IMG/VR virus record: IMGVR_UViG_3300017963_000395
Span: 1 to 43,373 of that record
DNA: 43,373 nt
Reading direction: 5' to 3' (one strand)
From: a virus
Shown piece by piece: positions 1 through 43,373 of the stretch (positions within the stretch are counted from its first letter, which is position 1; each line of letters starts with the position of its first letter). The notes below the pieces were generated by a model. It was not told the DNA's origin. It made no database searches and was given only the letters and a program-made list of their open reading frames with translations. The position numbers and the translations under genes are program-made.

Positions 1-3571
<3,571 letters not shown>

Positions 3572-3718
3572 TTGTTTAAAAGGGGGTAAGTATGAGTTCG
3601 GGGGAACGAACTTGGTATAGTATATTCCACGACACCCTCCATCGTGGATATGAGGGATGCTTTACTTCTCTTGATCCCGGTTTGAGAAGACACGGTTTTT
3701 AACCCCGTGTATGTATAT

Positions 3719-39915: not shown

Positions 39916-41292
39916 TTAGAATTTAAATCCCTCAAATGATTTTTTAGGTTTTCTTTCATCATCATTATACTCTTCTTCTTTACCAGAGTCAAGTATATCA
40001 TTTTGTGCGGATTGTTCACAGTCATACAATCTCATTTTTGCACGATCAATACCAACTACAAAACGTTTGTAAATCGATTTATCCCCATATCGATTTTTCA
40101 ATTGCTTAACTAAAATCTGTCCAAGTCCTTCTAATTCTTCGGTGCTGATGAGGGCAACAAGAAAGTCGGCAGTCGCAGGAAGTCCAAAAGATTCTGAAGT
40201 ATCCGTGATTTCAACGTCAGAAGAACTAAAACCGCTACGGGTCGTCTGTGTGGCGCTGAAAATTGGAACATCGTGCTCCACAGCGAGACCACGAAGTTCT
40301 TCGGCAATTGATTTAATTATGCTATAAGAATTGATATTACTTCCGGCACGAAATCTAGATGACGCACAGATATTAATATAATCAATAAAAATAACATCAG
40401 GTCTAAATGATTTCTTGAGAGCGAGCTCATTTAGAAGTGCCTTAAAGTGCCCGGAGTGTGCCGATGCAGTTGGATACTCCTTGATAATTAAAGTTCCTTT
40501 TGTTTTTTCTGCGAGTTTAGATGCCTTATTAGTGAACATAGATTTTGGTAAATCTTCTAATTGATTAATGGCAACATTCAACATATTAGCATCCATTCTT
40601 TTGGCAATTTCTTCTTCTGCCATTTCCATAGTAATGTATAAAACATTTTTTGATTGTAGTAAGAATGAAGAAGCCAGATGACACATCGCCAGAGTTTTGC
40701 CAACATTTGTTCCAGCAAGAAAAATATTGAGTGTCTTACTAGGTACACCACCATTTGTAATTTTATTGAAGAAATCTAAATCAAATTCAAGACGATTTTC
40801 TTTCTTATGATAATACTCATAACGTTCTTCATAATCCTGGAGATAATCATGTCCAATGTGATTATCAAAACTTACTGCAAGGGCGTCAGAAAGAATAGAA
40901 GGAATACTATCACGATTCTTTTTTTCATCCCCACCATCGGCAATATGAATCGATTCCATTAAAGCCAGATAAATGGCACGGTCGCGACACCATTTTTCAG
41001 TGGTATTCACCAACCAATCAAATTCAACCGGGACATCATCTAAACAAGAAACCAGTTGAATAATTTCTTTAAAAGAGGTATCATTAATATCCTTACGCTT
41101 TTCTATTTCAATACAAAGAACCTCTTTTGTTGCTGGTTGATTATATTCCTGAACAAATGAAAGTATTACTTCAAATACAATTTTTTGATTTGGGTCTTCG
41201 AAATATTCGGATTTTAGGAATGGTATAATTTTTCTAATATATTCTTCATTATATAATAGATTTCTAAGAATAAGAAATTCAACTTTATCCAT
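39916..41292 (-). CDS. gp41: Gp41 replicative DNA helicase (DnaB-like), 458 aa
   Basis: T4 gp41 homologue; unwinds the fork and partners gp61. The N-terminal domain is followed by the RecA-like core. IFLAGTNVGKTLAMCHLAS is Walker A, DVIFIDYIN is Walker B, and SATQTTRSGF is the sensor motif. No intein is present, though gp41 is a known split-intein site. Start overlaps the uvsX stop by 8 nt. Confidence 0.95.
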   Translation of the reverse strand: MDKVEFLILRNLLYNEEYIRKIIPFLKSEYFEDPNQKIVFEVILSFVQEYNQPATKEVLCIEIEKRKDINDTSFKEIIQLVSCLDDVPVEFDWLVNTTEKWCRDRAIYLALMESIHIADGGDEKKNRDSIPSILSDALAVSFDNHIGHDYLQDYEERYEYYHKKENRLEFDLDFFNKITNGGVPSKTLNIFLAGTNVGKTLAMCHLASSFLLQSKNVLYITMEMAEEEIAKRMDANMLNVAINQLEDLPKSMFTNKASKLAEKTKGTLIIKEYPTASAHSGHFKALLNELALKKSFRPDVIFIDYINICASSRFRAGSNINSYSIIKSIAEELRGLAVEHDVPIFSATQTTRSGFSSSDVEITDTSESFGLPATADFLVALISTEELEGLGQILVKQLKNRYGDKSIYKRFVVGIDRAKMRLYDCEQSAQNDILDSGKEEEYNDDERKPKKSFEGFKF

Positions 41293-41755
41293 AACTGAAT
41301 TGACTCTTGGCGATTACATCAAGTTTTTCCATTACTTCTGGTGGGAAGTATTTTTCGGTATTTTTTAGGATTTCTTTGGCATAAAGTTTCTTACCATCAA
41401 TCTCGTATCTTCCAGCAACATTCTTCCACATTTCACCAATCTCCCCAAGTTCTAGAAGACCATAATACCTATCAAGACCTCGTTCATCATAGAACAACCG
41501 AATTTGAACTTCTTGATTTTCTTTACTTAAACGGGACTTTTGAGTCTTCGCTCGAATAATATTTCCAATTATTTCTGTTCCGTCTTTTTCTTTTGATTTG
41601 GAAAGATAGATGATTGTAGAAGCGGCATATTGTAATCCACTATTATGAGTTACTACACCATTTTCTAAAATATAATTTTCATATTTTTCCACGGAGATAT
41701 CATAAACATCTCCAACGCCAACACTTGTGATGGATTTTATTTTTTTAGTTTTCAT
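41285..41755 (-). CDS. uvsX: UvsX C-terminal half with N-terminal C-intein, 156 aa
   Basis: Residues 1-38 are a C-intein (MKTKKIKSITSV, then VGDVYDISVEKYENYILENG, VVTHN) ending in the catalytic His-Asn, followed by extein Ser39. Residues 39-156 are the rest of the recombinase (SGLQYAASTIIYLSKSKE to DVIAKSQFSYG), corresponding to RecA after GGNALKFYAS. Its ATG overlaps the HNH stop (ATGA). It is inactive alone; it needs splicing to the N-half to give full UvsX. Confidence 0.93.
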   Translation of the reverse strand: MKTKKIKSITSVGVGDVYDISVEKYENYILENGVVTHNSGLQYAASTIIYLSKSKEKDGTEIIGNIIRAKTQKSRLSKENQEVQIRLFYDERGLDRYYGLLELGEIGEMWKNVAGRYEIDGKKLYAKEILKNTEKYFPPEVMEKLDVIAKSQFSYG

Positions 41756-42414
41756 AATCTTTCTATCCTTATAATATTGTAGTTTTTTAATAAATGCTGA
41801 AATTGAGATTTAACTAACTTACACCCAAGATGTCCGGATTTCCCCAAATATATTCCCAAATACTTATACTGACTAAAAATAATAAATGTACCATCATCGA
41901 AATAAACTTTTATGGGATTACTTTTCTTTATTGATAGTATTTTTTTAGTTTCTTCTGTGTGTTTTTTTCCGTAAAATGAATTATTATTTAATAAGTTATA
42001 TTCCTTATTTTTTATACTAATTAATTTTCTAGTTTCTTCAGTATGAGTTTTTCCATAAAATGAATTATTTTTTCCCATACTATGAAGTCTATTATTTTCT
42101 ATAATAGATTGATATATTTTTGAGTTTATTTTGATACAACTTCTACCAGAGTTTTTTCCCATAAATCTAACTAAAGCGCAATACATTTTTTTCACATATT
42201 GAGACTCTACAGATTTAGAAAGTAACAGATGCGCTATAAAATGTTCTCTGGGGGTTAATAAGACTTTATTAGATGGGTTATTACTACCACCCATACATTT
42301 TGGAACTATATGGTGAGAGTCATATATTCCACCATCTCCTTTACTCCTATTCATTTGTTTTCTTGTATTTACAAGATTCATATAAGTTTTAGTGTATTTG
42401 TTACAATTAAACAC
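41752..42414 (-). CDS. HNH homing endonuclease between the uvsX halves, 220 aa
   Basis: HNH motif at residues 30-60 (YDSHHIVPKCMGGSNNPSN, then EHFIAHLLLS), followed by two NUMOD3-like repeats (SFYGKTHTEETRKLIS, SFYGKKHTEETKKILS). GTG start, or ATG 33 nt downstream. It is encoded separately from both intein halves, so it is not an intein domain. Its presumed target is intact uvsX at the intein site. A late promoter sits just upstream. Confidence 0.9.
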   Translation of the reverse strand: MFNCNKYTKTYMNLVNTRKQMNRSKGDGGIYDSHHIVPKCMGGSNNPSNKVLLTPREHFIAHLLLSKSVESQYVKKMYCALVRFMGKNSGRSCIKINSKIYQSIIENNRLHSMGKNNSFYGKTHTEETRKLISIKNKEYNLLNNNSFYGKKHTEETKKILSIKKSNPIKVYFDDGTFIIFSQYKYLGIYLGKSGHLGCKLVKSQFQHLLKNYNIIRIERL

Positions 42415-42419
42415 AACAT

Positions 42420-42458
42420 AAAATACGAACCTAATACTATTTATAATATTCGTATTTT
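42420..42458 (-). promoter_or_regulatory. Late promoter in the loop of an inverted repeat before the HNH gene
   Basis: AAAATACGAA and TTCGTATTTT are perfect 10-bp arms around a 19-nt loop holding TATAAATA (42438-42445). The hairpin may also act as a weak terminator or shield for the uvsX-N transcript. Same logic as at 23024-23101. Confidence 0.62.
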
Positions 42459-42478
42459 ACACCGATACCGATTATAAG

Positions 42479-43373
42479 TCAAATACAACAAACTTCATTA
42501 TCAACAACTAAATCTTTTGCCTCAATCCACATACCATCAATAAAAAATTTATGTTCTGGCGTACAGGTAACTTTATATCCATCATCAAATTCTATCTGTA
42601 AAAGTTCTTTATCCTTAAAATTGTGAGTTTCTAAAACTTTCATAAACTCACCTTCTTTTGTATATACAAAATCATTTTCAGTTATATCTTCGATATTTTT
42701 ATACCCACCACGAGTAAAAATTTTAGTTCCAGGTGATAAGCACCCCCCGCTCATTTGTTTTCCACCATAAAGAGACATACTATCATAGGTGTGATTTGTC
42801 ACCAGCATAGGAATTTTTGCCTGCCCCAATTTGAGAGTCAGCATACGGAAGGCACCTTTAATCAGTTGTGCCTTTGTCATATCACGAGTATCCTTTTCGG
42901 CAAGAGCATCATTAATCTCTTTATTTGTAGAAAGCATTCCCAAGGAGTCCAATACAAAGATACAAGGTTTTCTTTCTTCCTCTTTTTTCTTCAGGTAAAT
43001 ATCAACTGCCTTGAGTGTCTTGGTACGAAACTCTTCAACCGTGACTACATTAACAACCACCAAACGATTTGTATCAATCCCACGAGACTCCAATAGTGAT
43101 TTGGTAATTGCGGATTCAGTATCAAAATACAGACAGTACCCATCAGGATGAGTATCAAGAAAGTTCTTAACAACAGCGAGACTGAAGAAAGTTTTTCCTG
43201 TAGAAGTTTCACCCGCGATAGCAGTAATTTTATTACCAGATACACCACCATATATACTGCCGGATACAAGAGCATTAAAAATGTACGAGCCCGTATCCAC
43301 ATAAGTTTCAGTTTCATCAATCTCTGATGCGAGTTGAGTATATTCTCCTCCAATCTCCTTTACAATATCTTTA
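42479..43373 (-). CDS. uvsX: UvsX N-terminal half fused to N-intein (5' end outside window)
   Basis: RecA-like recombinase part: IAGETSTGKTFFSLAVVK is Walker A, CIFVLDSLGML is Walker B, and MLVTNHTYDSMSLYGGKQ leads to SGG. An N-intein of 87 residues begins at Cys187, counted from the GTG at 43300 (CLSPGTKIFTRGGYKNIED, block B VTCTPEHKFF), and ends at a stop. The frame stays open to the right edge, so the true start lies beyond the window. UvsX coats ssDNA and pairs homologous strands; homing itself relies on this activity. Confidence 0.95.
   Translation of the reverse strand, partial: KDIVKEIGGEYTQLASEIDETETYVDTGSYIFNALVSGSIYGGVSGNKITAIAGETSTGKTFFSLAVVKNFLDTHPDGYCLYFDTESAITKSLLESRGIDTNRLVVVNVVTVEEFRTKTLKAVDIYLKKKEEERKPCIFVLDSLGMLSTNKEINDALAEKDTRDMTKAQLIKGAFRMLTLKLGQAKIPMLVTNHTYDSMSLYGGKQMSGGCLSPGTKIFTRGGYKNIEDITENDFVYTKEGEFMKVLETHNFKDKELLQIEFDDGYKVTCTPEHKFFIDGMWIEAKDLVVDNEVCCI

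Follow-up and report, generated by a model that had tools for sequence, protein, structure and literature searches.

What becomes of a recombinase whose gene is divided by another gene is the question raised by the right end of IMG/VR record IMGVR_UViG_3300017963_000395. The stretch analyzed here (the window) is the complete record of 43,373 bases, which ends inside the recombinase gene uvsX; judged from its nearest matches, the phage is a T4-like cyanophage. In the window, uvsX occupies two minus-strand genes, with the gp41 helicase gene next to them and a gene for an endonuclease between them. Our answer, which we hold with high confidence, is that uvsX is a fractured gene, containing a canonically split mini-intein and a free-standing HNH homing endonuclease gene (HEG), that trans-splicing would restore a scarless UvsX, and that the HEG would be responsible for homing.

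All features of the locus lie on the minus strand. The first gene encodes the UvsX N-extein (42743-43373), of which 210 residues are present, including an intact P-loop (GETSTGKT). Its 5′ end is lost at the contig end, and a contig that is 99.9% identical to the window (L003/G002) runs on to the start of uvsX (MDFLKDIV...). The N-extein matched PF00154 (36.3 bits) and the UvsX-like recombinases of phrog_97 (E = 2e-71), and was 80–84% identical to UvsX of Synechococcus phages. It continues into an N-intein of 87 residues (intN; 42482-42742; CLSPGTK...CTPEH...CCI), with Cys1 and block B CTPEH, followed by a stop codon (42481-42479). The HEG (41752-42414) encodes 220 residues from a GTG start, and its stop codon overlaps the ATG of the second gene as ATGA. 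This second gene, the C half (41755-41285), has its own ATG, with AAGGA ten bases upstream, and consists of a 38-residue C-intein (intC; 41642-41755) that ends in ENGVVTHN before Ser+1, and a 118-residue UvsX C-extein (41288-41641; SGLQYAAS...), followed by a stop codon (41287-41285).

Profile searches identified both intein halves: intN matched TIGR01445 (intein_Nterm; 39.2 bits, cut-off 24.5), intC matched TIGR01443 (intein_Cterm; 37.1 bits, cut-off 15.6), and the two joined matched PF14890 (54.8 bits, cut-off 35.8). The splice-junction residues (Cys1, the block B His, His-Asn and Ser/Thr+1) are all present, and Cys1, the block B His, the block F Asp and the terminal His-Asn were invariant in 18 aligned inteins from the same site. 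The break point in uvsX falls between the two exteins at MSGG|SGLQ, which, in RecA numbering, we place just past the GG that comes after loop L2 of RecA proteins. The exteins match abutting positions of intact cyanophage uvsX genes, such as that of S-PRM1; the C-extein, which also matched phrog_18112 and phrog_97, is 80% identical to S-PRM1 UvsX right after the N-part. Joined, the exteins form a single unbroken frame: residues 1-328 align to S-PRM1 UvsX with 83% identity and no gap, and the match to a phage UvsX of known structure (9gbg, E = 1e-116) spans the junction. An earlier note, made from the letters of this DNA, had proposed a uvsX fractured by a split intein with a separate HNH gene between the halves, and the profile scores and abutting exteins bear this out; the arrangement is no product of chance. 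The residues that it named (Cys1, TPEH, His-Asn before Ser, and the SGG/SGLQ junction) were all correct, and its claim that no extein sequence is lost agrees with the unbroken joined frame. A group I intron in place of an intein at uvsX was considered and rejected: Rfam found introns in psbA and none at uvsX.

In the mechanism that we propose, a mini-intein would have been inserted directly after the loop-L2 region of the recombinase, with the free-standing HNH HEG in the place where inteins usually carry their endonuclease. With the HEG between the intein halves, uvsX would therefore be expressed as two polypeptides. We infer from the sequence that intN and intC pair and undergo trans-splicing through Cys1, Ser+1 and Asn cyclization, yielding scarless UvsX. 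The endonuclease is predicted to cut the intein-less uvsX of co-infecting phages, with a putative cleavage site near the insertion site, and repair, which itself uses UvsX, would then copy the intN-HEG-intC block across. T4 homing requires UvsX (PMC2988022), and recombination in the present phage would depend on trans-splicing.

The two pieces might instead work as a non-covalent two-subunit enzyme, in which the intein halves are inactive relics. There is precedent among T4-like phages: the essential enzyme NrdA of phage Aeh1, split by MobE, functions without ligation as a non-covalent enzyme, according to work cited in PMC10448857. However, relic inteins would decay, whereas here all the splice-junction residues are kept, and the exteins, the intein and the HEG are under purifying selection, with dN/dS values of 0.00–0.34, mostly 0.02–0.34. 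Moreover, the break adjoins the DNA-binding loop, where dangling tails of 87 and 38 residues should interfere. We consider a two-subunit enzyme very unlikely.

The same layout was found in many viral contigs, by pattern scans and through relatives of the endonuclease. When the intein halves were compared with phage genomes by tblastn, same-site matches were found in Straboviridae isolates, including Yersinia phage TG1, Escherichia phage HY03, Enterobacter phage UFV01, Proteus phages PM2 and Pm5461, Pseudomonas phage PspYZU05, Shewanella phage Thanatos-1, and Vibrio phages EniLVp02 and VmeM-32. The annotation of these isolates lists two recombination proteins, one for each half, and in most cases a homing endonuclease lies between them. 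They share with the window the gene, the insertion site, homologous intein halves and an endonuclease gene between the halves, but the endonuclease differs, being GIY-YIG where the type is named (TG1 and Thanatos-1) rather than HNH/NUMOD3. The uvsX junction that the earlier note suggested looking for in phage genomes is thus present in both isolates and viral contigs; the assignment of the locus to the fractured-gene class, which the note described as found in metagenomes, stands, with the qualification that cultured T4-like phages carry the arrangement too. Among cyanophage-like contigs, pattern matches gave at least 120 stretches with an intact junction and nine with the intein junction. The sole match to the junction pattern in bacterial genomes (L248) lies inside a gene for a TonB-type outer-membrane protein and looks like chance.

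If uvsX had simply been broken by an endonuclease and were dead, recombination would fall to the host RecA or to another phage enzyme. UvsX is not absolutely essential in T4, which counts in favor of such a loss, as does the fact that the window is an incomplete record of its phage. However, both extein parts are strongly constrained within the fractured group (dN/dS of 0.02–0.12), on which ground a dead gene was rejected, and many lineages, as well as viable isolates that have no other uvsX, have retained fractured genes. No second intact uvsX, which the earlier note had named as evidence against its proposal, was found in the window or in its relatives of 50.8 and 70.7 kb, all of them fragments, and eight complete isolate genomes that share the arrangement contained none beside the two halves. 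A dead uvsX is scarcely credible.

Whether the block moves between phages can be judged from the longer relative (G001), to which the window's phage is mostly 66–91% identical. The element itself differs at only six positions in about 1,100 nt, compared to 74 of 987 (7.5%) in the flanking uvsX (Fisher p = 3e-18); three of the six differences are in the 660 bases of the HEG and none in the 64-base spacer. The near-identity is centered on the element and drops within tens of bases on either side. (For the dN/dS analysis and the Fisher test, the intN boundary was set one codon short; this codon holds no mismatch and the results are unaffected.) In most other close pairs, too, the exteins showed more synonymous divergence than the element. 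Furthermore, the two trees place contig L084 differently: by its intein it joins the window, inside L006 and L094, and by its exteins it falls outside all three; both placements are supported. Taken together, the near-identity in divergent phages, the fall-off into the flanks and the conflict between the trees are indirect evidence that the element has recently been mobile between phages.

Other contigs show this insertion site in different states. In L010 (1277-3034), uvsX is uninterrupted and is followed, 36 bases downstream, by a free-standing HNH gene from the family of the window's HEG, possibly representing the state before insertion. A contiguous intein occupies the L2 site in L088 and in Salicola phage SCTP-2. 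The gene is fractured with an endonuclease gene in the window group and in most of the isolates, and fractured, apparently without one, in L084, L085 and L086. In L084 (1219-2019), the 54 bases between the halves correspond to the last HEG codons (FYKNYNITEIKYL), followed by the same ATGA; the endonuclease appears to have been deleted while the split was kept.

These states bear on a further possibility, namely that splicing is real but homing by the HNH gene has ceased, the block being kept by the start of the C half within the end of the HEG and the transfers reflecting ordinary recombination at uvsX. The ATGA overlap and the position of this start make a clean loss of the HEG hard, which counts in favor of this explanation, and in L094, where no clear ribosome-binding site precedes the C half, its expression may depend on coupling. 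Against it stand the steep fall-off of the near-identity on either side of the element, the constraint on the HEG, and L084, in which the HEG appears to have been lost while the start of the C half was kept. An element that no longer homes is improbable, though it deserves some weight.

A second site in uvsX, at the P-loop (GK|T), carries a different intein, which is contiguous in L123 and L126. At this site, L121, L122, L124 and L125 are fractured, with a very short N-intein (about 28–38 residues) and another endonuclease-like open reading frame (ORF) that has no clear family match. In L006/L100 (1845-4648), both the P-loop and L2 sites are fractured, and the first endonuclease gene is internally deleted (seen in one contig only); UvsX in this phage would therefore come from three polypeptides, joined through two different split inteins. 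L082 (5180-7890) has two uvsX inteins, one fractured at HTYKQVG|S, whose halves flank an endonuclease-like ORF on the reverse strand, and one contiguous at the L2 site.

The endonuclease itself matched NUMOD3 (48.1 bits, cut-off 20.4) and the homing endonucleases of phrog_655 (E = 5e-37). Upstream of it is a predicted 13-bp RNA hairpin (42418-42460, minus strand; RNA fold z of −2.9 to −3.2) that ends 3 nt before the GTG and is the second most structured of the 41 gene starts in the window. The loop contains TATAAATA (42438-42445, minus strand), a T4-type late promoter motif that occurs eight times on the coding strand of the window, compared to about 3.3 expected by chance. The motif before the HEG is conserved in L002–L006, L094, L095 and L092. 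Hairpins are also predicted at the endonuclease start in enteric loci that have other endonucleases, and TATAAATA is present in two of these (L105 and L106). An RNA started at TATAAATA would lack the 5′ arm of the hairpin, and HEG expression may be late-biased, from a promoter within a putatively inhibitory hairpin, with the C half expressed from its own start as well. For T4 I-TevI and SegB and for Aeh1 MobE, a late promoter has been described that lies within or next to an RNA hairpin preceding the HEG (PMC2988022). These genes lie in introns or between genes, whereas the putative control region in the window lies between two halves of one protein.

Several points weigh against our account of the locus. 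The match of the HEG to HNH_4 (17.0 bits) is under the Pfam cut-off of 22. L005 and L094 have only a weak hairpin, and no clear ribosome-binding site that the hairpin could sequester was found for the HEG in the window, for which reason control by the late promoter and hairpin is proposed tentatively. Splicing and cutting are both deduced from the sequence. Finally, a second uvsX could lie elsewhere in the window's phage, as only fragments are available of it and of its nearest relatives.

The intein adjoins the single-stranded DNA (ssDNA)-binding loop of the recombinase, and its splicing might be conditional, like that of an archaeal RadA intein that, going by a title cited in PMC7765530, responds to ssDNA. 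Trans-splicing of UvsX could then be a regulated step, perhaps responsive to ssDNA, with the late promoter of the HEG and the ATGA overlap tuning the supply of the C half. If so, the element would govern the very enzyme by which its homing is carried out. We regard this extension as doubtful.

The neighboring gp41-type replicative helicase gene (39916-41292, minus strand; DnaB_C, 60.5 bits) overlaps the end of the C half and is uninterrupted. In L123 and L126, the gp41 frame downstream of uvsX enters a gp41-1-like N-intein start (TATQTNR|CL). At the other end of the window, the psbA region (1-3701, minus strand) has five Rfam group I intron matches (356-581, 671-882, 1670-1988, 2194-2492 and 3175-3402, minus strand), an HNH ORF (823-1512), an HEG-like ORF (2267-2965; phrog_655) with its own TATAAATA hairpin, and a PhotoRC-II element (3612-3701).

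Nearly every stage of intein homing, including at least two endonuclease types, is seen at this one locus, which makes the origin and persistence of split inteins directly testable. Since a fractured uvsX also occurs in phages that are easy to grow, Escherichia phage HY03 among them, splicing, homing and any control by ssDNA could be tested at the bench. The new natural split inteins are also possible tools for protein ligation. Current annotation treats the two halves of uvsX as unrelated proteins, and PHROGs places them in different families (phrog_8337 and phrog_18112).

Fractured genes with split inteins were reportedly described by Dassa et al. in 2009 for gp41, NrdA, NrdJ and IMPDH, and that work is said to have highlighted a Vsr-like endonuclease type. 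As in those, a conserved gene of DNA metabolism in a phage is interrupted by a canonically split intein whose halves flank a free-standing endonuclease gene; unlike in those four, the host gene here is uvsX, and the endonuclease is of the HNH/NUMOD3 rather than the Vsr-like type. A literature search returned no paper with both uvsX and a split intein, the 2009 list of fractured host genes lying outside that search. The gp41-1 intein was the best PDB match to intN, and the Pho RadA intein was also among the PDB matches. Inteins in RecA-family recombinases are found in Mycobacterium RecA and Pyrococcus RadA as well, but those are single-chain genes, while uvsX here is fractured. T4 SegA likewise targets uvsX. 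The arrangement itself belongs to the published fractured-gene kind; this analysis adds the breadth shown by the locus, examples in culturable phages, the different types of endonuclease at one intein site, the deleted-endonuclease state and a possible three-piece enzyme.
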